DNA of 64,000 nucleotides from NCBI RefSeq assembly GCF_023375815.1, contig NZ_CP067412.1:186001-250000 (forward strand). The letters run 5' to 3'. Made by a program: the position numbers and the translations under genes. Below, piece after piece: positions 17,521 through 38,550 of this stretch; positions within the stretch are counted from its first letter, which is position 1, and each line of letters begins with the position of its first letter. The notes under the pieces are model-generated. The model had not been told where the DNA came from. It did not search any database and was given only the letters and a program-made list of their open reading frames with translations. This DNA comes from Pseudomonas sp. HS6. GTDB lineage: Bacteria; Pseudomonadota; Gammaproteobacteria; Pseudomonadales; Pseudomonadaceae.

Positions 17521-18043
17521 GCGCCCTCACCCCAGCCCTCTCCCGGAGGGAGAGGGAGCCGACCGAGTTGTTTGGGAGAGGTACGCCGACGTGAGATACC
17601 GAGGCGTACTCAGGTTCTTAAAAAGCAAACATCCCGCGCCAGCCCTTGCCCTCACCCTTGCCTTTGCCTTTGCCTTTGCTTCCCCCCACTCAACACGATG
17701 AGCGTTAGCTCAAGTACCGCTTTTGACGTGCCGGCCCCATCGGAAGGCTGAGTGGAGGGATTTATCCGGGGGTGGGCGCGTAGCGCCGTTTGGCGAAGCC
17801 AAACACATCGAGAGGAGGTGCAGCGAAGCAAACCGTAGGCGATGCCCCCGGATGAATCCCGGAACGAAGGAACGCCGAGCCACAGCGAGGTGCCGAACGC
17901 AGGGGCCCAGCCTTTTGGTTCCTTTTTGGCGTCTGAAAAAGGGACTCGCCGTAAGGGCGAAACCGCCAGCGGCAGCATCCGAAGCAACGGATATTCACCC
18001 AAAACCCCAAGAGCATGGTCGGCCCAAAGGCCGCCAAGAAGGC
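17521..18043. repeat. Block of intergenic repeat sequence, probably a dispersed Pseudomonas element
   Basis: A 520-base block with no credible gene. It begins with CCCTCACCCCAGCCCTCTCC, in which CCCTCTCCCGGAGGGAGAGGG is almost self-complementary, a string I recall as very common in Pseudomonas intergenic DNA. A hexamer run TTGCCT (about 3.7 copies, 17658-17681) follows. Next comes a stretch (about 17740-18040) with hairpin-like segments such as GCGCGTAGCGCC and GCCGTTTGGCGAAGCCAAAC. Frames are open on both strands here but their peptides resemble nothing, which is typical of GC-rich repeat DNA. Confidence 0.6.
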
Positions 18044-18069
18044 AAAAAAAAGGGCAACCGAAGTTGCCC
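18044..18069 (-). terminator. Rho-independent terminator after ccoM
   Basis: On the minus strand the stem GGGCAAC / GTTGCCC with a TTCG tetraloop is followed by eight T. It lies 35 bases after the ccoM stop codon. Confidence 0.92.
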
Positions 18070-18103
18070 AAAATGCCTTGCGTGCTCATCAAACCCAGAA
18101 GGA

Positions 18104-18220
18104 CTAAGGCTTCTTGCGCTTATTCGCATCCTTCCAGATAAAAAATCCAAACCCTGCAAAAAACAGAACCATGAGCCCCACCGTCAGAACCCCGGCAAAC
18201 ACCACGTTATCGAAAAACAT
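18104..18220 (-). CDS. ccoM: CcoM-like small subunit of cbb3-type cytochrome c oxidase
   Basis: A 38 aa single-span membrane protein that starts MFFDNVVFAGVLTVGLMVLF, continues FAGFGFFIWKDANKRKKP and stops with TAG. It closely matches, from memory, CcoM of Pseudomonas stutzeri, a fourth subunit seen in the cbb3 oxidase structure and needed for stable assembly. The gene has a strong AGGAGG ribosome site six bases before the ATG and its own terminator, so it is a single-gene unit. No ccoNOPQ genes are nearby. It is short enough to be missed by automatic gene callers. Confidence 0.82.
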   Translation of the reverse strand: MFFDNVVFAGVLTVGLMVLFFAGFGFFIWKDANKRKKP

Positions 18221-18365
18221 GACTGGCCTCCTGGCCCCTGCTTTGCTGCGATGGAGCTAAGTTAACCAATCAGGCAGGCGCAGGAATTGACCGGGATCAA
18301 TGCCGGTCAACACGCGGGAGAAAGGAGGGGAAATAACTGACCTGCATCAAGGGATGCAGGGGAGA

Positions 18366-27102: not shown

Positions 27103-29385
27103 ATGGAGTGGCTTGGTTTGCAATTTGTTGCCGAGCTGCCGGAGAGCGGGCAGGTCATCCTCAATTGCACACACAACCCCTTGCTGGTGTTGGTCGCCTA
27201 TCTGGTGGCGTGTGCCGCGAGTTTCGCCACCCTCGACATGGCGGAACGCGTCGGTCATGCCGAAGACCCCGGGTCACGCAGGCTTTGGCGCTGGATCGGG
27301 GCCACTTGCCTGGCTGGCGGCATCTGGGCCATGCATTTCATCAGCATGCTGGCGTTCCAGACGCCGATCGACATCCAGTACGACCTGTCCATCACCCTGT
27401 TTTCCCTGCTGATCGCCGTGCTGGCGTCCTGGCTGGCGATGCACACCCTGAGTGAACCGCAGCCCAGCCTGCTGCAATACCTCAAGACCGCCATCGTCAT
27501 CGGACTGGGCATTGCCGGGATGCATTACGTCGGCATGGCCGCCATGCAATCCGCCGCCACCGCCTACTACGAACCGACCTTGTTCGGGCTGTCGATCCTG
27601 ATTGCCATCGGCGCCAGTTTCGCCGCGCTGTGGGTAGCCGGGTACTTGCGTGAAGGCAGCGGCCTGCACAACCAGATGCTCAAATACGTGGCCACCCTGA
27701 TTCTCGGGGCCGGCATCATCAGCATGCATTTCACCGGCATGGCGGCGTTGCAACTGGTCCTGCCGGAGGGAAGCATTCCCACACTGAAGGCCGATTCCAG
27801 CCACTTGCAACTGGGGCTCACCGTCGCCTTTATCACCCTGTTGATCCTCGGCAGCGCCATCAGCGCGGCATTGGCCGACAAGAAGCTGCAGAACAAGGAA
27901 CAGGACCTGCGCCGGGTCAACACGTTGCTCAGCCAGCTCGACCAGGCGCGCATGTCGCTGCAACAGGCGGCCAATTACGACGCGTTGACCAACCTGATCA
28001 ACCGTCGCGGTTTCAACCAGATCTTTGCTGAAAAGCTCAGCCAGAAATCCACCGAGGGCGGCATGCTCGCGGTGATGTTTCTCGACATCGACCACTTCAA
28101 ACGCATCAACGACAGCCTCGGCCATGATGCCGGCGACGAACTGCTCAAGGTCATCGCCCAGCACATCAAAGGCTCGGTGCGCGGTCATGAAGACGTGGTC
28201 GCACGCTTTGGCGGCGACGAATTCTGCATCCTGATCGGCCTGCGCGACCGCGAAGAAGCCCGCAACCTGGCCCAGCGCATCATGCTCAAGATGAAGGAGC
28301 CGATCGAACTGGCCGGACGGCGCATGGTGATGACCACCAGCATCGGCATCAGCCTGTTTCCCGAAGACGGCACCACCTGTGATGAACTGCTCAAGCACGC
28401 GGACCTGGCGCTGTATCAGTCCAAGGGTGCCGGGCGCAACGGCGTACACTTTTTCGATTCCAACCTGAAAAACCGCGCCAGCCTGGAACTGCAACTGGAG
28501 GAAGAACTGCGTCATGCCCTGCGTGAAGAGAACGGGCTGATGCTGTATTACCAGCCGATCTTCGAACTGAAGACCGGCAAGGTCACCAAGCTCGAAGCGC
28601 TGATTCGCTGGCAGCACCCGGTACACGGCCTGCTGACCCCTGATCGTTTTATCGCCATCGCCGAAAACAACGGTCTGATCGCCGAACTCGACAACTGGGT
28701 GCTGCGCAAGGCCTGTGAAGACCTCGGCGAGCTGTCGCGCCATGGCTGCGATGATCTGAAGATCGCCTGGAACTGCTCACCGCTGAATCTGGCCCGGGAA
28801 GAATTGGCCAATGAAATCGAATACGCCTTGCGCAGCGCCGGCGTCGCCCCCGAACGGCTGGAACTGGAGGTAACCGAAAACGCCCTGATGGGCAACATCG
28901 CCAATACGCTGGTGCTGTTGCGGCAGATCCGTGCCCTCGGGGTATCGCTGTCGATCGACGATTTCGGCACCGGCTATTCATCGCTGGCCTACCTCAAGCG
29001 CTTGCCGCTCAACACCCTGAAGGTCGATCGCTCATTCATCCTCGACATCCCCAAAGCCACCGCCGATATGGAGATCGTCCAGGCGATCATCGTCATGGCC
29101 CACACTCTGCACCTGCAGGTGGTCACCGAAGGCGTGGAAAGCCTGGAACAATACGAGTTCCTCGAGCGCTCGGGCTGCGACTTCATTCAGGGTTACCTGC
29201 TCAGCCGTCCGGTGCCGCTGCACGAACTGCGCCCGGTTCTTGAAGAGATCAACCAGCGCAAACACGCCCACACGGTCAATCCGCTGAGTCTGGCTCGCGG
29301 TACATTTTCACCAGTGTCGAAGGATCTTTCGCCAAAAAGCCCTGCGCCCCATGCAGGCGCATCAGTTGTGCGGCCAATCCGCTGA
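27103..29385 (+). CDS. Membrane MHYT-GGDEF-EAL cyclic-di-GMP protein
   Basis: Inner-membrane protein of 760 aa predicted to make and break c-di-GMP. Seven-helix MHYT sensor, about residues 20-260, with the repeats MHFISML (77), MHYVGMAAM (140) and MHFTGMAAL (208), thought to bind copper and sense O2, CO or NO. GGDEF domain with an intact active site RFGGDEF (370-374) and no clear RxxD inhibitory site. EAL domain with LEALIRW (498), DDFGTGYSSL and TEGVE, so the key phosphodiesterase residues are present. Architecture matches P. aeruginosa MucR and NbdA. The last 110 bases overlap a convergent gene, giving a tail that looks unconserved. Confidence 0.92.
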   Translation: MEWLGLQFVAELPESGQVILNCTHNPLLVLVAYLVACAASFATLDMAERVGHAEDPGSRRLWRWIGATCLAGGIWAMHFISMLAFQTPIDIQYDLSITLFSLLIAVLASWLAMHTLSEPQPSLLQYLKTAIVIGLGIAGMHYVGMAAMQSAATAYYEPTLFGLSILIAIGASFAALWVAGYLREGSGLHNQMLKYVATLILGAGIISMHFTGMAALQLVLPEGSIPTLKADSSHLQLGLTVAFITLLILGSAISAALADKKLQNKEQDLRRVNTLLSQLDQARMSLQQAANYDALTNLINRRGFNQIFAEKLSQKSTEGGMLAVMFLDIDHFKRINDSLGHDAGDELLKVIAQHIKGSVRGHEDVVARFGGDEFCILIGLRDREEARNLAQRIMLKMKEPIELAGRRMVMTTSIGISLFPEDGTTCDELLKHADLALYQSKGAGRNGVHFFDSNLKNRASLELQLEEELRHALREENGLMLYYQPIFELKTGKVTKLEALIRWQHPVHGLLTPDRFIAIAENNGLIAELDNWVLRKACEDLGELSRHGCDDLKIAWNCSPLNLAREELANEIEYALRSAGVAPERLELEVTENALMGNIANTLVLLRQIRALGVSLSIDDFGTGYSSLAYLKRLPLNTLKVDRSFILDIPKATADMEIVQAIIVMAHTLHLQVVTEGVESLEQYEFLERSGCDFIQGYLLSRPVPLHELRPVLEEINQRKHAHTVNPLSLARGTFSPVSKDLSPKSPAPHAGASVVRPIR

Positions 29386-30172
29386 TCGGCGTGGCCGAGC
29401 CGACTTCGCGGGAAAACTTCACCGCCGTATCGAGATCCTTGAGCAGCGTGCGCACGTGCCATCTCACCGGCTCGAAACGGCTTTCGGCCATTTGCGGGGC
29501 GAGTATCTGCAAAGGTTTCGAATCAGCAAAACCACCGGCCAGTGCTTCGGCAATCTGGCTGGCGTCGACCCCGGACTGCTCGGCCAGTGCGACCACTTCG
29601 GCAATCACCAGCGCATTGCACGCGACGATCATCTGGTTGCAGGCCTTGGTCACCTGACCGGCGCCAACGCCGCCCATGTGCGTAACGCGCTGGCCGAGGG
29701 CGAGCAACACCGGGCGTACGCGATCAAGATCTACTGCATCACCGCCTACCATGATCGCCAGGCTACCGGCTTCGGCCCCGACCACGCCGCCGGACACCGG
29801 CGAATCGAGCCAGGCCATGCCAGTCGTGTCCGCCAGTTGCGCCGCCATCTCACGGGTCGCCGTCGGTTCCAGGCTGGAAAAATCCACCAACAACTGATCG
29901 CGTTTCGCCCCTTCTGCGACACCGTTCGGGCCAAACACCACCTCGCGTACCACGGCCGTGTCGGCAAGGCACAGCATCATCACATCGGCGTGCCGACACA
30001 GCTCGGCAGGCGTCGCCACCTGCCGGGCGCCGGCCTCGACCAGCGGCGCGCATTTGTCCGGGTTGCGGTTCCACACGGTCAGCGGATACCCCGCTGCCAG
30101 CAGACGCCGGCACATCGGCAGGCCCATCAGACCGATTCCGGCAAACCCCAACGAAGGTAGCGTTGACATCAT
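29276..30172 (-). CDS. NAD(P)-dependent beta-hydroxyacid dehydrogenase (3-hydroxyisobutyrate dehydrogenase family)
   Basis: A 298 aa dehydrogenase of the HIBADH/GarR/GlxR group. Rossmann motif GFAGIGLMGLPMCRRLLAAG is at residues 9-28, the substrate-binding DSPVSGGVVGAEAGSL at about 122, and the catalytic Lys in GAGQVTKACNQM. It could reduce tartronate semialdehyde or oxidise a beta-hydroxyacid; the exact substrate is not shown by sequence. Tandem ATG codons follow an excellent AGGAGGCTAA site. Its 3' end overlaps the end of the MHYT-GGDEF-EAL gene. No pathway partners lie next to it. Confidence 0.88.
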   Translation of the reverse strand: MMSTLPSLGFAGIGLMGLPMCRRLLAAGYPLTVWNRNPDKCAPLVEAGARQVATPAELCRHADVMMLCLADTAVVREVVFGPNGVAEGAKRDQLLVDFSSLEPTATREMAAQLADTTGMAWLDSPVSGGVVGAEAGSLAIMVGGDAVDLDRVRPVLLALGQRVTHMGGVGAGQVTKACNQMIVACNALVIAEVVALAEQSGVDASQIAEALAGGFADSKPLQILAPQMAESRFEPVRWHVRTLLKDLDTAVKFSREVGSATPISGLAAQLMRLHGAQGFLAKDPSTLVKMYREPDSAD

Positions 30173-30369
30173 TTAGCCTCCTTTTGATTAAAGATCGCCG
30201 AATAATGGCCGATCCATCATCAATCAGGAAAGGATTCCCCCGCGCGACACTCAGGCCAGAGCCCTGACGCACGGGCCAAATACGCGCAGCAAAAAGACGC
30301 GAGATTCCCATTCCGTGAGGCTCGACGACAGCGGTCGCCGAACCAACCAGTCCAGGTATATGGCGCACA

Positions 30370-32571
30370 ATGACTTCTAAAAACAATCCGGCCACTGCGG
30401 TATCCGATCTGACCCTGAGCCCTGCAGCGAACAGCCCTGCCCCGATGAAGCCATTGCCTCCTTCGCGCCCGTCGGGCACCCAGCAATACCTGTACTTCAC
30501 CGAAACCAACACTGACCGCATCCTCGACAACCTCGACGGCCTGCGTGACCTGGTGTTCCCGCGCCCGCCGCACCTGGAAGGCGACAACGAGCAGCACAAC
30601 GATCAGGAATTCCCGTCGGTGTGCCTGATCGGACTCGGTCGCTGCGGTTCCAACATCGCCCTCGACGTGGCGGAACTGGTGTACAACGCGCGCAAGTTCT
30701 ACCTCAACGAATTCAACAACGAAGATCGCGCGGCTGACCGACGTCTGGCGTCCGACAAAGGCTACAGCCCGGCCCAGTGGATCAAGCAGAACCTGCGGAT
30801 CGGCCCGAACAAGTCCACCAAACCGGTGTTCCTGGTGGAACCGCTGGTGATGCTCGGCGACCTGGACAAGGACATTGCCGGGCGCATCCGTTTCTCGCGC
30901 AAGGGCGAGAAAAGCGGCTTCCTGCGCGACTACAGCAAAATGAAAATCATGGACTTGTCCGAAGTCCATGCTGGTGGCGCCGGTAACGCGCCGATCCTCG
31001 GCCAGTATCTGGCGAAGATCATCCTGAACAAGGATACCCAGCGCTTCTCCAGTCCTGACTGGAAAATGATCCACTCGTACCTGATCGACAGCTGCGGCAT
31101 CAAGGCCAACCAGTCGCGCCTGTATTTCTCGATCTTCAGTGCCGGCGGCGGTACCGGTTCGGGCATGGCCTCGGAATTCGGCCTGGCCCAGCAGCACTCG
31201 TACATGAACAAGACGTTCGACACCAAGCCGATGGACGAACATGACGGCAAAAGCGGTCATTCGTTCGTGTTCGAGCCGATCTTCACCAGCGGTATCTGCG
31301 TGCTGCCGAACATTTCCGACCACCGCAGCGAAATGTCCGAGGCGCTGCACATCAACGCCGGTCGCCTGCTGTGCAAATACTTGTCGGAAGAATGGGATTT
31401 CTCGTACAACTTCGCCAACGAAGACAGCAGCGAAGCCAGCGTCATGGGCCGTATCCGCCCATGGAACGCGATGATGCTGATCTCCAACGACATCATGCGT
31501 TACGCCGAAGAAAGCGATGACGGCAACATCCAGAACATTGATGTCAATGCGATGGAAAAGCACGCCAACCAGTACATCTCGCAGCAGATCTTCAACATTC
31601 TGACGGCGCAGGCAGTCACGACCGACTACGACCAGAACTATTTCCGTCGTGCCGGCATCGACATCGGCGAGACCATTCGCCTGGACGCCAACGACCTGTT
31701 CATGAGTCTGGCCGGCCCGGTGGCGATTGCCTACGCAGAATCCGTGGTGCCGGAAACCCCGCCGCCGAGCAGCGACAAGTTCAAGGTGTTCGACAAAGAG
31801 CCACAGCGCCTGAACATCGACGACCTGTTCTTCCGCTCGATCGACCTGCCGCACTTCAACAAGGTCACTCAGGCCATCGAAGGCATCAGCCTGCTGCCGA
31901 TCGAATCCAAGCGCTATCGCGCCTCGCTTGAGCAGTACAAGAACTCCGGCTACGACGCCGCCGCACTGCATGACCTGCACTTCTTCAAGAATTGCTCGTC
32001 GGTGGTCTCGATCGTTTCGCTGCCGAAAGACTACAAGCTGTCGTACATGGACCTGAACCGGTTGAAGACCCACCTCAACAGCCTGTTCCCCAACACCACG
32101 CTCAAGCGTTACGCACTGGTGATCGGCGCCTCGGCCAACCTGTCGCTGACCACCCTGATCGCCAAGAGCCCGTGCCTGTCGGACGACTTCCTGACCCTGA
32201 TCGTGGCATTCATCAAGCGATGCTTCGCGAAGACCCCGTACCGTTTCGACGAGACCCTCGACAACTCGATCCTCGACTTCATCATCAACGAAGAATTCGA
32301 CGAAGATCGCATCGATGACCTGCTCAACGAGTTCGAGAACCCGGCGAAGATCCTCGATACCAACTGGTACGCGATCAAACCGATGTACGAGAAGAAGTAC
32401 CGCGAGCTGATCAACGACAAAGAGAAGTTTGTCTCGATCAACGACATCCGCCTGTCGCGCGATTGCGTGAAGAAGTCGATCAAGTATCTGCGTGAGATCT
32501 ACCGTCACCGGATCGGCAAGACCAAGGTCATTTCGCTGAATAACCATACCGGCAAGACTTACTCGGTCTGA
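30370..32571 (+). CDS. FtsZ/tubulin-superfamily protein of unknown role
   Basis: A 733 aa protein with a tubulin-type nucleotide-binding core after an 80-residue Pro/Ser-rich lead. By-eye matches to FtsZ: loop T1 CLIGLGRCGSNIALDV (85-100); loop T4 SAGGGTGSG (257-265), the tubulin signature; T5-like FTSGICVLPNISDHRSEMSE (305-324); T6 MMLISNDIMRYA, like the IPNDKLL of FtsZ; helix 7 MEKHANQYISQQIFN; and T7-like RLDANDLF, where D439 and D442 align with the catalytic Asp pair and Asn is replaced by Arg. The C-terminal 290 residues are unlike FtsZ. The start is uncertain, with no clear ribosome site. It is a single gene followed by a REPIN, not part of a phage or plasmid. Function unknown. Confidence 0.8.
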   Translation: MTSKNNPATAVSDLTLSPAANSPAPMKPLPPSRPSGTQQYLYFTETNTDRILDNLDGLRDLVFPRPPHLEGDNEQHNDQEFPSVCLIGLGRCGSNIALDVAELVYNARKFYLNEFNNEDRAADRRLASDKGYSPAQWIKQNLRIGPNKSTKPVFLVEPLVMLGDLDKDIAGRIRFSRKGEKSGFLRDYSKMKIMDLSEVHAGGAGNAPILGQYLAKIILNKDTQRFSSPDWKMIHSYLIDSCGIKANQSRLYFSIFSAGGGTGSGMASEFGLAQQHSYMNKTFDTKPMDEHDGKSGHSFVFEPIFTSGICVLPNISDHRSEMSEALHINAGRLLCKYLSEEWDFSYNFANEDSSEASVMGRIRPWNAMMLISNDIMRYAEESDDGNIQNIDVNAMEKHANQYISQQIFNILTAQAVTTDYDQNYFRRAGIDIGETIRLDANDLFMSLAGPVAIAYAESVVPETPPPSSDKFKVFDKEPQRLNIDDLFFRSIDLPHFNKVTQAIEGISLLPIESKRYRASLEQYKNSGYDAAALHDLHFFKNCSSVVSIVSLPKDYKLSYMDLNRLKTHLNSLFPNTTLKRYALVIGASANLSLTTLIAKSPCLSDDFLTLIVAFIKRCFAKTPYRFDETLDNSILDFIINEEFDEDRIDDLLNEFENPAKILDTNWYAIKPMYEKKYRELINDKEKFVSINDIRLSRDCVKKSIKYLREIYRHRIGKTKVISLNNHTGKTYSV

Positions 32572-32591
32572 CAGCAGACCGAGGCGCCCCA

Positions 32592-32680
32592 ATCGCTGGC
32601 AAGCCAGCTCCCACAGTTTCTGCGTCGATCATTAATGCTTTGTTCGACACAAAGACTGTGGGAGCTGGCTTGCCAGCGAT
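32592..32680. repeat. REPIN after the tubulin-like gene
   Basis: Inverted pair of REPs with the GCTGGCAAGCCAGC arm type. Outer ends are ATCGCTGG and CCAGCGAT, with about 40 bases between the copies. Confidence 0.93.
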
Positions 32681-32733
32681 GAGGCCCTGAAATTCACTGA
32701 AGATTTCAGCCTTTCCAACATCCAGAAACAATT

Positions 32734-33548: not shown

Positions 33549-34676
33549 ATGACTAAGGCTACTAAGCAGATTTCCAAACTGTTTGCCGCTATGGTACTGG
33601 CCGGGGTTGCCAGCCATTCGTTCGCAGCTGACACCATCAAGATCGGTATCGCCGGCCCTAAAACCGGCCCGGTAGCCCAGTACGGCGACATGCAGTTCAG
33701 TGGCGCCAAAATGGCCATCGAACAGATCAACGCCAAGGGCGGCGTCGACGGCAAGAAACTCGAAGCCGTTGAATACGATGACGCTTGCGACCCGAAACAA
33801 GCGGTAGCCGTTGCGAACAAGGTCGTCAACGACGGCGTCAAGTTCGTGGTCGGTCACCTGTGCTCCAGCTCCACTCAGCCTGCTTCGGACGTTTACGAAG
33901 ACGAAGGCGTGATCATGATCACCCCGGCTGCCACCAGCCCGGACATCACTAGCCGTGGTTACAAAATGGTGTTCCGCACCATCGGTCTGGACAGCGCCCA
34001 GGGTCCTGCCGCCGGTAACTACATTGCCGATCACGTAAAACCGAAAATCGTTGCTGTCCTGCACGACAAACAGCAATACGGTGAAGGCATTGCCACCGCC
34101 GTGAAGAAAACCCTGGAAGGCAAAGGCGTCAAGGTTGCCGTGTTCGAAGGCGTCAACGCCGGCGACAAAGACTTCTCTTCGATGATTGCCAAGCTCAAGC
34201 AAGCCAACGTCGACTTCGTCTACTACGGCGGCTACCACCCAGAGCTGGGCCTGATCCTGCGTCAGTCCCAGGAAAAAGGCCTGAAAGCCAAGTTCATGGG
34301 TCCGGAAGGCGTGGGTAACGACTCCATTTCGCAGATCGCCAAGGACGCGTCCGAAGGCCTGCTGGTGACCCTGCCGAAGTCCTTCGACCAGGATCCGGCC
34401 AACGTTGCTCTGGCTGATGCATTCAAGGCGAAGAAAGAAGACCCGAGCGGTCCGTTCGTGTTCCCTTCCTACTCGGCGGTTGAAGTGATTGCCGGCGGTA
34501 TCGCCGCTGCCAAATCCGAAGACCCTGCCAAAGTGGCGGCTGCCATTCACGCCGGCACCTTCAAGACCCCTACCGGCGACCTGAGCTTCGACGCCAAGGG
34601 CGACCTGAAGGACTTCAAATTCGTGGTCTACGAGTGGCACTTCGGCAAACCTAAAACCGAAGTTTCGCCTCAGTAA
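33549..34676 (+). CDS. braC: Branched-chain amino acid ABC transporter, periplasmic binding protein
   Basis: Periplasmic Leu/Ile/Val (and Ala/Thr) binding protein of the LIV-I system, 375 aa. Signal peptide residues 1-26 (MTKATKQISKLFAAMVLAGV to SFAA). The mature protein has the LivJ/LivK fold with KIGIAGPKTGPVAQYGD, VEYDDACDPKQAVAVANKVV and FVVGHLCSSSTQPASDVYED, including the two Cys expected to form a disulphide. It is separated from braDEFG by a terminator and 230 bases, the usual way to make the binding protein in excess. Confidence 0.95.
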   Translation: MTKATKQISKLFAAMVLAGVASHSFAADTIKIGIAGPKTGPVAQYGDMQFSGAKMAIEQINAKGGVDGKKLEAVEYDDACDPKQAVAVANKVVNDGVKFVVGHLCSSSTQPASDVYEDEGVIMITPAATSPDITSRGYKMVFRTIGLDSAQGPAAGNYIADHVKPKIVAVLHDKQQYGEGIATAVKKTLEGKGVKVAVFEGVNAGDKDFSSMIAKLKQANVDFVYYGGYHPELGLILRQSQEKGLKAKFMGPEGVGNDSISQIAKDASEGLLVTLPKSFDQDPANVALADAFKAKKEDPSGPFVFPSYSAVEVIAGGIAAAKSEDPAKVAAAIHAGTFKTPTGDLSFDAKGDLKDFKFVVYEWHFGKPKTEVSPQ

Positions 34677-34700
34677 GGCGCTGCCTGACTGACTGCCAAT

Positions 34701-34732
34701 AAAGCCCACGGCGTGCCGTGGGCTTTGTTTTA
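34701..34732 (+). terminator. Rho-independent terminator between braC and braD
   Basis: Stem AAAGCCCACGG / CCGTGGGCTTT followed by GTTTTA. It is probably partly leaky, giving more braC than braDEFG transcript. Confidence 0.88.
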
Positions 34733-34907
34733 CGAATGTATTGGGCCGCGCTGGCGTGATCCGCCAGTCTCCCCACCTGAAAATCTCAAAACCGTCATCA
34801 GCGGTTCGCTGGCAAAACCCGGATTCGAAGTGGATAAAGATCCACGGGGCCGGGCGGGAAAATGACTCCACCAGTGAAATGCGTATCAGGTTTTTAGGAG
34901 CGCAGTA

Positions 34908-35831
34908 ATGCCTGACCTCTATCACTTCTTCCAACAGCTGGTTAATGGCATGACCATTGGCAGCACGTATGCCCTGATCGCCATCGGCTATACGATGGTC
35001 TACGGCATCATTGGAATGATCAACTTCGCCCACGGCGAGGTCTACATGATCGGCTCCTACGTGGCGTTCATCGCCATCGCCGGGCTGTCCATGATGGGAC
35101 TCGACAGCGTTCCGCTGTTGATGACCGCCGCTTTTCTCGCAACCATCGTCGTGACCAGTGCCTACGGTTACAGCATCGAACGCGTCGCCTACCGCCCCTT
35201 GCGCGGCAGCAACCGTCTGATCCCGCTGATTTCCGCCATCGGTATGTCGATCTTCCTGCAGAACACGGTTCTGCTGGCGCAAGACTCCAAGGACAAATCC
35301 ATCCCCAACCTGATCCCCGGCAACATTTCCATCGGGCCAGGTGGCGCACATGAAGTGCTGATTTCCTACATGCAAATCGTGGTGTTCGTGGTGACCCTGG
35401 TCGCCATGCTCGGCCTGACGCTGTTCATCTCCCGCTCTCGCCTGGGTCGCGCCTGCCGTGCCTGTGCCGAAGACATCAAGATGGCCAACCTGCTGGGCAT
35501 CAACACCAACAACATCATCGCCCTGACCTTCGTCATCGGTGCTGCGCTGGCGGCCATCGCGGCCGTGCTGCTGAGCATGCAATACGGCGTGATCAACCCG
35601 AACGCCGGTTTCCTCGTCGGCCTCAAGGCCTTCACCGCCGCGGTACTGGGCGGGATCGGCAGCATCCCCGGCGCCATGCTCGGCGGGCTGGTGCTCGGTG
35701 TGGCGGAAGCCTTTGGTGCCGATATCTTCGGCGACCAGTACAAGGACGTCGTGGCGTTCGGCCTGCTGGTTCTGGTGCTGTTGTTCCGGCCAACCGGCCT
35801 GTTGGGTCGTCCGGAGGTTGAGAAAGTATGA
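34908..35831 (+). CDS. braD: Branched-chain amino acid ABC transporter permease LivH-type
   Basis: Inner-membrane permease, 307 aa, about 8 membrane segments. It has [20 protein letters not shown] near the start, the [18 protein letters not shown] stretch, and the cytoplasmic coupling loop [20 protein letters not shown] that contacts the ATPases. Ribosome site TAGGAGCGCAGTA. It overlaps braE by 4 bases. It forms the membrane pore with BraE. Confidence 0.95.
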
Positions 35832-37084
35832 CTAGGAATCTTAAACAGGCGCTGTTCAGCGCCCTGCTGGTGTGGGCTGTGGCCTACCCGGTACTCGGTC
35901 TGAAGCTGACCATCGTCGGCATCAACCTCGAAGTGCATGGCACCAGTACCTCGACCTTGATCACCATTGCCGTCTGCTCGGTACTGATGTTCCTGCGCGT
36001 GTTGTTCGACCGGCAGATCGGCGCGGCTTGGAAATCCTCGCCGAACCTGCCCAAGATGCCGGCCAAGGCCAGCAGCTTCCTGACCCTGCCGACCACCCAG
36101 CGCTGGATCATCATTGCGTTGATTATCGGTGCGCTGGTCTGGCCGTTCTTCGGCTCTCGCGGCGCGGTGGATATCGCCACGCTGGTGCTGATCTACGTGA
36201 TGCTGGGCCTGGGCCTGAACATCGTGGTCGGCCTGGCAGGCCTGCTCGACCTGGGTTACGTCGGCTTCTATGCCGTCGGCGCCTACAGTTATGCGCTGCT
36301 GTCGCATTACTACGGCCTGAGCTTCTGGATCTGCCTGCCGATCGCCGGACTGATGGCGGCCACCTTCGGCTTCCTGCTCGGTTTCCCGGTACTGCGTCTG
36401 CGCGGTGACTATCTGGCGATCGTGACGCTGGGCTTCGGTGAAATCATCCGTCTGTTCCTGCGTAACCTCACCGACATCACCGGCGGCCCGAACGGCATTA
36501 GTAACATTCCCAAGCCATCGCTTTTCGGATTGACCTTCGACAAGACGGCTGCAGAGGGGATGCAGACCTTTCACGAGTACTTCGGGCTGACCTACAACCC
36601 GGTGAACAAGGTGATCTTCCTTTACCTGATCGCGGTGTTGCTGTCGCTGTTCGCGCTGTTCGTCATCAACCGCTTGCTGCGCATGCCCCTGGGCCGTGCC
36701 TGGGAAGCGTTGCGCGAAGACGAGATCGCTTGCCGCGCGCTGGGTCTGAATCCGACGATCATCAAGCTCTCGGCGTTTACCCTGGGTGCCTGCTTCGCCG
36801 GTTTCGCCGGCAGTTTCTTCGCCGCCCGTCAGGGTCTGGTGACGCCGGAGTCCTTCACCTTCATCGAGTCGGCGACCATTCTCGCCATCGTGGTGCTGGG
36901 CGGCATGGGCTCGCAGCTGGGCGTGGTACTGGCCGCGGTCGTGATGATCCTGCTGCCGGAAATGATGCGTGAGTTCAGTGAGTACCGCATGCTGATGTTC
37001 GGCGCCCTGATGGTGCTGATGATGATCTGGCGACCTCAAGGTCTGCTGCCCATGCAACGTCCTCACATGGAGCTGCGCAAATGA
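35828..37084 (+). CDS. braE: Branched-chain amino acid ABC transporter permease LivM-type
   Basis: Second permease, 418 aa, with about 10 membrane segments. An extra N-terminal hydrophobic region of about 100 residues precedes the LivM core, as in other Pseudomonas BraE. Core signatures are [20 protein letters not shown] and the coupling loop [20 protein letters not shown]. Start and stop overlap braD and braF by ATGA, so the operon is tightly coupled. Confidence 0.95.
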
Positions 37085-37848
37085 GCCGCGAGATCCTGAA
37101 AGTCGAAAATCTGAGCATGCGCTTCGGCGGCCTGCTGGCGGTCAACGGCGTGGCCCTGACCGTGAAGGAAAAACAGGTGGTTGCACTGATCGGGCCGAAC
37201 GGCGCGGGCAAGACCACCGTGTTCAACTGCCTGACTGGTTTCTACAAGCCGAGCGGCGGCAGCATCGTCCTCGACGGCGAGTCGATCGAAGGCCTGCCGG
37301 GCCACAAGATCGCCCTCAAAGGCGTTGTGCGTACCTTCCAGAACGTGCGGTTGTTCAAGGACATGACGGCGGTCGAGAACCTGTTGATCGCCCAGCACCG
37401 TCACCTGAACACCAATTTCCTGGCCGGTCTGTTCAAGACCCCGGCGTTTCGCAAAAGCGAGCGCGAGGCCATGGAATACGCCGAATACTGGCTGGAAAAG
37501 GTCAACCTCAAGGAGTTCGCCAACCGTCCGGCCGGCACTCTGGCCTACGGTCAGCAACGTCGTCTGGAAATTGCGCGCTGCATGATGACCCGTCCGCGGA
37601 TCCTCATGCTCGACGAACCGGCCGCCGGTCTGAACCCGAAGGAAACCGAAGACCTCAAGGCGCTGATCAGCGTGCTGCGTGAAGAGCACAACGTGACGGT
37701 GCTGCTGATCGAGCACGACATGAAACTGGTCATGAGCATTTCCGACCACATCGTCGTGATCAACCAGGGCACGCCTCTGGCCAACGGCACGCCGGAACAG
37801 ATCCGCGACAATCCTGAAGTGATCAAAGCCTACCTGGGGGAAGCGTAA
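37081..37848 (+). CDS. braF: Branched-chain amino acid ABC transporter ATPase LivG-type
   Basis: Cytoplasmic ATPase, 255 aa. Walker [11 protein letters not shown]-loop in [10 protein letters not shown], a LivG-type signature [14 protein letters not shown] in place of LSGGQ, Walker [14 protein letters not shown] and switch His in [12 protein letters not shown]. The C-terminus ends IKAYLGEA, typical for this branch. It pairs with BraG. Confidence 0.96.
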
Positions 37849-38550
37849 ATGCTGCAGTTCGAAAACGTTTCCACCTTCTACGGCAAGATCCAGGCCCTGC
37901 ACAGCGTCAACGTCGAAGTCCGCCAGGGCGAGATCGTGACCCTGATCGGCGCCAACGGTGCCGGCAAGTCCACCCTGCTGATGACGCTGTGCGGTTCGCC
38001 GCAGGCGCACAGCGGCAGCATCCGCTACATGGGTGAGGAACTGGTCGGCCAGGAATCGTCGCAGATCATGCGCAAGAGCATCGCCGTGGTGCCGGAAGGC
38101 CGTCGGGTGTTTGCCCGCCTGACCGTCGAAGAGAACCTGTCCATGGGCGGATTCTTCACTGACAAGGGCGACTATCAGGAACAGATGGACAAGGTTCTCG
38201 GACTTTTCCCACGCCTGAAAGAACGCTTCAACCAGCGCGGCGGCACCATGTCCGGCGGCGAACAGCAAATGCTCGCCATCGGCCGGGCGCTGATGAGCAA
38301 GCCGAAATTGCTGCTGCTCGACGAACCGTCGCTGGGCCTGGCACCGATCATCATCCAGCAGATCTTCGACATCATCGAACAGCTGCGCAAGGACGGGGTG
38401 ACGGTGTTCCTGGTCGAGCAGAACGCCAACCAGGCGCTGAAAATCGCTGACCGTGCCTACGTGCTGGAGAACGGCCGGGTGGTGATGCAAGGCACCGGTG
38501 AAGCGCTGCTGACCGACCCGAAAGTGCGCGAGGCGTACCTCGGCGGTTGA
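37849..38550 (+). CDS. braG: Branched-chain amino acid ABC transporter ATPase LivF-type
   Basis: Cytoplasmic ATPase, 233 aa, directly after the braF stop codon. Walker A GANGAGKST, signature MSGGEQQMLAIGRAL, Walker B LLLLDEPSLGLAP, switch VEQNANQALKIADR and the LivF-type end VREAYLGG. Last gene of braDEFG, followed by a strong terminator. Confidence 0.96.
   Translation: MLQFENVSTFYGKIQALHSVNVEVRQGEIVTLIGANGAGKSTLLMTLCGSPQAHSGSIRYMGEELVGQESSQIMRKSIAVVPEGRRVFARLTVEENLSMGGFFTDKGDYQEQMDKVLGLFPRLKERFNQRGGTMSGGEQQMLAIGRALMSKPKLLLLDEPSLGLAPIIIQQIFDIIEQLRKDGVTVFLVEQNANQALKIADRAYVLENGRVVMQGTGEALLTDPKVREAYLGG

Follow-up and report, generated by a model that had tools for sequence, protein, structure and literature searches.

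A 64,000-nucleotide stretch of the Pseudomonas sp. HS6 genome (contig NZ_CP067412.1, positions 186,001 to 250,000; hereafter the window) is predicted to encode a protein with a tubulin fold that, judged from its motifs and architecture, is very likely a member of the FtsZl2 family. The gene is real, conserved and little studied, and it belongs to a known family rather than a new one. Found in roughly two out of three Pseudomonas species examined, this conserved chromosomal tubulin, which in HS6 exists alongside a normal FtsZ, marks a gap in bacterial cell biology. Genes for cyclic di-GMP (c-di-GMP) enzymes recur beside it, and these neighbours are the first concrete, testable lead on FtsZl2 function.

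The AlphaFold2 (AF2) model makes it highly probable that the protein belongs to the tubulin/FtsZ superfamily, as an earlier note made from the letters of the DNA had proposed. Structure matching with this model recovered the tubulin/FtsZ fold across the GTPase and activation domains, and the segment at residues 85-445, which the note had singled out, is predicted to adopt it. Both Foldseek, in which TubZ was the second match, and structural alignment bore the superfamily assignment out. The connector helix H7 is modelled at residues 392-419, and BtubA, OdinTubulin and alpha/beta-tubulin align with the model over 375-387 residues in all. The C-terminal region had been described as the protein's own, but in the model it aligns with CetZ and FtsZ to about residue 620 and with tubulins to about residue 718. 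Secondary structure assigned with DSSP to model residues 483-711 is a mixture of strands and helices, the helices being at most 15 residues long, with no coiled coil. The predicted tubulin-like character of the C-terminal half makes polymerisation assays worthwhile. Residues 129-154, 417-419 and 471-475 are poorly modelled, and the N-terminal lead is predicted to be disordered, again in agreement with the note (Table 1). The alignment with which AF2 succeeded included eight relatives at 29-34% identity. Phage tubulins/FtsZ were matched in a search of BFVD structures, at E 8e-10 or weaker, which is what the fold would lead one to expect; that TubZ and PhuZ chains are not among the 50 structural alignments listed carries no weight. 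The Pfam profiles PF00091 and PF13809 both matched below threshold, searches of NCBIfam, PHROGs and PADLOC returned nothing meaningful, and the PDB searched by sequence gave no meaningful match (a single one at E 2.5).

The T1, T4, T6 and T7 motifs that had been read by eye are real, as seen in 121 genomic copies (Table 1) and in a 72-row alignment that extends to 29% identity. All 72 rows keep the five GGGTGSG glycines, N373 in SNDIM and, within RLDANDL, R437 and D442; D439 is kept in 71, the remaining row having E. With a dN/dS of 0.06-0.08 against five relatives, the gene is estimated to be under strong purifying selection.

A deep FtsZl2 branch (P0278, P0281, P0289, P0293, P0294, P0296, P0301 and P0302) consists of proteins of 640-663 aa at 28-34% identity; within it, P0294 comes near Pfam Tubulin_2 (E 3.9e-5) and P0301 has E for D439. 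The 409-aa fragment P0284 carries an N-terminal Cro/C1-type helix-turn-helix (HTH_3, E 7.7e-14) fused to an FtsZl2-like GTPase half (46% identity across 61% of the GTPase query), an arrangement reminiscent of TubR/TubZ pairing within one chain. In the copy at locus L112 (genome G193), GGGTDSG replaces GGGTGSG, and the neighbour enzyme in that genome is NMT1-GGDEF. The match at locus L176 (genome G067) runs only from about residue 386 on and the T4 part is absent, so this copy looks N-terminally cut or decayed; the matched part starts 66 bp downstream of the end of an MHYT-GGDEF-EAL open reading frame (ORF).

FtsZl2 was found in 130 of 199 Pseudomonas genomes, 129 of which have one match; in G075 a single gene accounts for both matches, being in two pieces on its contig. 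Outside Pseudomonas the family is patchy. It occurs in 7/145 genomes of the wider order, 2/321 and 4/370 of the class and 6/349 of the phylum (each count including the HS6 genome), in 29 of 48 genomes of a genus coded g28, and in 1 of 3 genomes in the family of G376, 6 of 47 in the family of G1080 and 2 of 6 in the order of G1084. Among the matches listed, relatives include Rheinheimera, Arsukibacterium, Cellvibrio, Marinomonas, Colwellia and Alkalimonas, and the named matches (within the best 120 of 666, 647 and 131) are all Proteobacteria, the phylum to which all genomes searched belong. No FtsZl2 match was found in plasmid records and no relative in viral contigs, and a tblastn search of phage records gave three matches only (E 2 to 5), which look like chance. 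The earlier note knew of no characterised Pseudomonas member, but the FtsZl2 type, PFL_1302 of P. fluorescens Pf-5, was already in print (Makarova and Koonin 2010, PMC2875224). Orthology to PFL_1302 is very likely because the gene is single copy in P. fluorescens-group genomes, the type being compared by its description.

The HS6 genome consists of one contig of 6.55 Mb, in which a PF00091 search at E 0.01 matched only one other gene, over the cut-off: the canonical FtsZ at G000:C1:6288824-6289303. The possibility that the protein is the cell's own FtsZ is ruled out by this separate gene, and the note was right to hold that it is not FtsZ.

To describe the neighbourhood, flanks were read for 121 of the 171 genomic FtsZl2 copies (81 of 131 in Pseudomonas and all 40 others). 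Twenty of these loci were collected before the GGDEF genes were noticed and the rest after, and some flanks are truncated where a contig stops. At 82 of the 121 loci (62/81 in Pseudomonas, 20/29 in g28 and 0/11 in others) the FtsZl2 gene has a GGDEF and/or EAL ORF no more than 1.3 kb away, on the same strand in every one of the 82. These ORFs are tightly placed: 81 of the 90 found within 8 kb lie within 1.2 kb. Three enzyme types occur, with domain make-up taken from Pfam on six examples. MHYT-GGDEF-EAL lies within 1.3 kb at 59 of the 81 Pseudomonas loci (upstream in 57, downstream in 2), NMT1-GGDEF is upstream in 2 and downstream in 1, and Ammonium_transp-PAS-GGDEF-EAL is downstream in 16 and upstream in 4. 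Identity between downstream and upstream MHYT proteins is 55-58%, and between NMT1 proteins from the two sides 66-68%. In g28, where ppx is fixed and like genes lie beyond, the order of FtsZl2 and enzyme is swapped in L228, L231, L249 and L253 relative to L097 and others. At L100, a GGDEF-EAL gene is second downstream on the same strand, outside the 1.3 kb limit and uncounted. A set of 80 Pseudomonas loci, which are close relatives and may overlap genomes of the 121-locus set, has the MHYT gene in 75; it is not in L038 (contig end), L042, L061, L069 or L080.

In the 27 genomes for which GGDEF matches were counted (3-61 per genome), random placement predicts 0.63 loci with GGDEF within 1.3 kb, and 14 were found. 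At least 16 changes between adjacent and non-adjacent states were reconstructed on a tree that had long-branch warnings; this count cannot separate gain from loss, and we read the changes mostly as losses. The claim that the gene stands alone holds, probably, for its transcription and fails for its neighbourhood, because GGDEF/EAL genes recur beside it.

We hypothesize, tentatively, that FtsZl2 binds and hydrolyses GTP, polymerises head to tail, and works with the neighbouring membrane-bound c-di-GMP enzymes. A GTP-dependent polymer is quite probable. A functional tie to c-di-GMP, for which the neighbourhood is the sole source, may exist, with the odds somewhat against it. The full proposal, in which bacteria have a second tubulin cytoskeleton governed by c-di-GMP and a GTP-driven filament is controlled by, or steers, membrane sensors that make and break this messenger, is speculative and rather unlikely. 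GTP would be bound in the T1-T4-T6 pocket. In FtsZ, T7 residues act across the filament interface, and the T7 loop of the next FtsZl2 subunit (D439 and D442) would similarly trigger GTP hydrolysis, so that filaments grow and turn over. FtsZl2 presumably acts outside the divisome, since it has no FtsA/ZipA-binding tail and a real FtsZ is present. Its partners would be sensor enzymes, predicted to synthesise or degrade c-di-GMP, whose input is of the MHYT, substrate-binding or ammonium-transporter kind. The place or timing of filament formation could be set by c-di-GMP or by the sensor enzyme, coupling an outside signal to the filament; alternatively, the filament could position the enzyme in the membrane. 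FtsZl2 would then likely be a second internal filament system tied to the c-di-GMP signal, and if c-di-GMP does run this cytoskeleton, lifestyle signals would act directly on a tubulin polymer. There is a precedent in Escherichia coli, in which the diguanylate cyclase YfiN is reported to be also a cell division inhibitor (PMC4992967).

Several observations weigh against this hypothesis, beginning with the fold. AF2 run from a shallow alignment (60 sequences, all at least 55% identical) gave a pLDDT of only 45.7, and when the family was compared by hhalign with a profile of 31 FtsZ proteins, only the GAG...GGGTGSG stretch aligned, at probabilities of 5% and 11%; the fold claim rests on AF2. The L112 copy has a D inside the T4 glycine motif. 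The c-di-GMP neighbour is absent at 39 of the 121 loci. Among these are each of the 11 that belong neither to Pseudomonas nor to g28, and 9 of the 29 g28 loci, where FtsZl2 is kept. When loci are sorted by flanking genes into ten groups, the link appears in only two (by enzyme type it appears in three, by type and side in six). The loci share ancestry, so the 27-genome figure overstates significance, and GGDEF was chosen only after looking at the data. In Pseudomonas, a dehydrogenase gene (NADdh) likewise occurs on either side, and part of the pattern is thus explained by local shuffling. The distances of 66 bp to 1.3 kb between the genes, and in HS6 the oppositely oriented gene that lies between them, speak against a single operon.

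The missing neighbours, the restriction to two of ten neighbourhood groups, the side changes of a plain dehydrogenase and the sheer number of GGDEF genes in most genomes would all be expected if FtsZl2 forms a tubulin-type filament with no c-di-GMP role, at a locus that is hitch-hiking or slowly shuffled. Such a filament could serve cell shape, envelope growth, or chromosome or cargo placement, and we give this explanation the same guarded credence as the hypothesis above. It fits less well with three differently composed enzymes that all occur on either side and never on the opposite strand, and with the concentration of nearby GGDEF/EAL ORFs within 1.2 kb. Owing to the shared ancestry, the post hoc choice of GGDEF and the dehydrogenase side changes, the c-di-GMP link is suggestive and not settled.

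The protein could also be a tubulin-fold GTP-binding protein that does not polymerise and, whether monomer or dimer, serves as a GTP-dependent switch or scaffold. It is larger than FtsZ, and some of the poorly modelled stretches could block a filament face; against this explanation, the T7 residues D442 and D439 are kept. We consider it improbable. The earlier note had further suggested an antiphage element. Other prokaryotic tubulins are reported to occur together with GTPases, HSP70 and vWA proteins in what are predicted to be conflict systems (PMC7159879), but no such partner is present among the 12 Pfam-scanned window neighbours, PADLOC found none, and no viral or plasmid relatives were found. 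The single copy, its fixed chromosomal place in close relatives and the strong purifying selection also argue against a conflict element, to which we assign only a very small chance, and an antiphage role is not supported on present evidence. The 2010 proposal of a membrane-remodelling role, which the note mentioned, rests on FtsZl1 and not on FtsZl2 (PMC2875224).

Table 1. Predicted parts of the FtsZl2 gene and neighbouring genes, in window coordinates
Feature	Position	Strand	Basis or context
FtsZl2-family tubulin-superfamily gene, 733 aa (very probable assignment)	30370..32571	+	ORF, published family description, AF2, structure match
Disordered N-terminal lead, residues 1-40 (predicted)	30370..30489	+	block pLDDT 29-49 in AF2 model
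Predicted GTPase half (T1, GGAGN, T4, T6, H7, T7), residues 83-462	30616..31755	+	motif counts, model, CetZ/FtsZ alignment
T4 signature GGGTGSG, residues 259-265	31144..31164	+	exact in 119/121 loci
T7 motif RLDANDL, residues 437-443, including D439 and D442	31678..31698	+	121/121 loci
Predicted FtsZ/tubulin-type activation domain, residues ~480-605	31807..32184	+	CetZ and most FtsZ chains align up to model residues 599-627
Predicted tubulin-like C-terminal helices, residues ~606-718	32185..32523	+	BtubA, OdinTubulin, alpha/beta-tubulin align up to model residues 714-718
MHYT-GGDEF-EAL gene	27103..29385	+	Pfam; recurrent same-strand c-di-GMP neighbour
3-hydroxyisobutyrate dehydrogenase-like gene, divergent	29276..30172	-	Pfam; between MHYT gene and FtsZl2 gene here
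DUF2288 gene	downstream of FtsZl2 gene	-	Pfam
Branched-chain amino-acid ABC transporter operon	33549-38550		downstream of FtsZl2 gene

Pfam scans of 12 neighbouring genes in the window showed metabolic, transport and signalling genes, with no phage, plasmid or mur/fts gene among them, and the note's description of a chromosomal setting of this kind stands. In many relatives the 3-hydroxyisobutyrate dehydrogenase-like gene is not between the MHYT and FtsZl2 genes, and the gap there is about 200 bp. Upstream past the MHYT-GGDEF-EAL gene are a CxxCxxCC gene, an MFS transporter and rapA. The codon bias of the FtsZl2 gene ranks 8 among 27 window genes and is not telling. In window 30180-30369, 5' of the gene, most of 23 aligned Pseudomonas loci share conserved blocks around ATTAAAGA and AAAGxCGCGA...CCGTGA. 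A promoter scan gave no sigma-70 match in these blocks; it found one promoter against 0.9 expected, inside the FtsZl2 gene itself. Past the stop codon, at window 32590-32690, two copies of GTGGGAGCTGGCTTGCCAGC form a REP-like inverted pair, and the PhrS small RNA is found at window 18043-18260 on the minus strand (193 bits).

Compared with known systems, the protein is distinct from FtsZ, CetZ and the tubulins. FtsZ has a C-terminal conserved peptide that binds FtsA/ZipA. This tail is missing here: the HS6 FtsZ ends in DIPAFLRRQAD, whereas the FtsZl2 protein ends in GKTKVISLNNHTGKTYSV. Identity to CetZ (Haloferax, Methanosaeta) and FtsZ is only 13-17% in structural alignments with the model. 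Unlike tubulins, BtubA and OdinTubulin, the protein has long T1-T4 inserts and a disordered lead, and no second subunit gene is seen alongside. It shares the tubulin fold with TubZ and PhuZ, but these are plasmid or phage proteins, whereas the FtsZl2 gene is chromosomal and no plasmid or phage relatives of it were found. There is a weak profile match to FtsZl1/Tubulin_2 (PF13809, E 0.0053); membership of that family was rejected, the score of 16.5 bits being below the cut-off of 27. The HS6 protein differs from FtsZl1 also in that its modelled C-terminal region lacks a coiled coil and that none of the scanned neighbours is a vWA, GTPase, kinase or OmpA gene.

In the open-licence literature, we found no later study of FtsZl2, the other match being the FtsZ mutant L272E. 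A P. fluorescens c-di-GMP CRISPRi study concerns FtsZ and other genes (PMC6828691), and another paper sets Tubulin_2 proteins aside and does not contain the string FtsZl (PMC9871819). FtsZl2 as described in the 2010 paper has T1, T4, T6 and T7 and a ~300-aa C-terminal region without known relatives, is restricted to Proteobacteria, and is reported without associated genes and hence without a functional clue (PMC2875224). The HS6 protein resembles this description in its GTPase core (T1, T4, T6 and T7, together with H7), in its ~300-aa modelled mixed alpha/beta C-terminal region lacking a coiled coil, and in a genome that also has a normal FtsZ. It differs from the published family in that the C-terminal region models as a tubulin-type half and in that c-di-GMP genes recur beside the gene.
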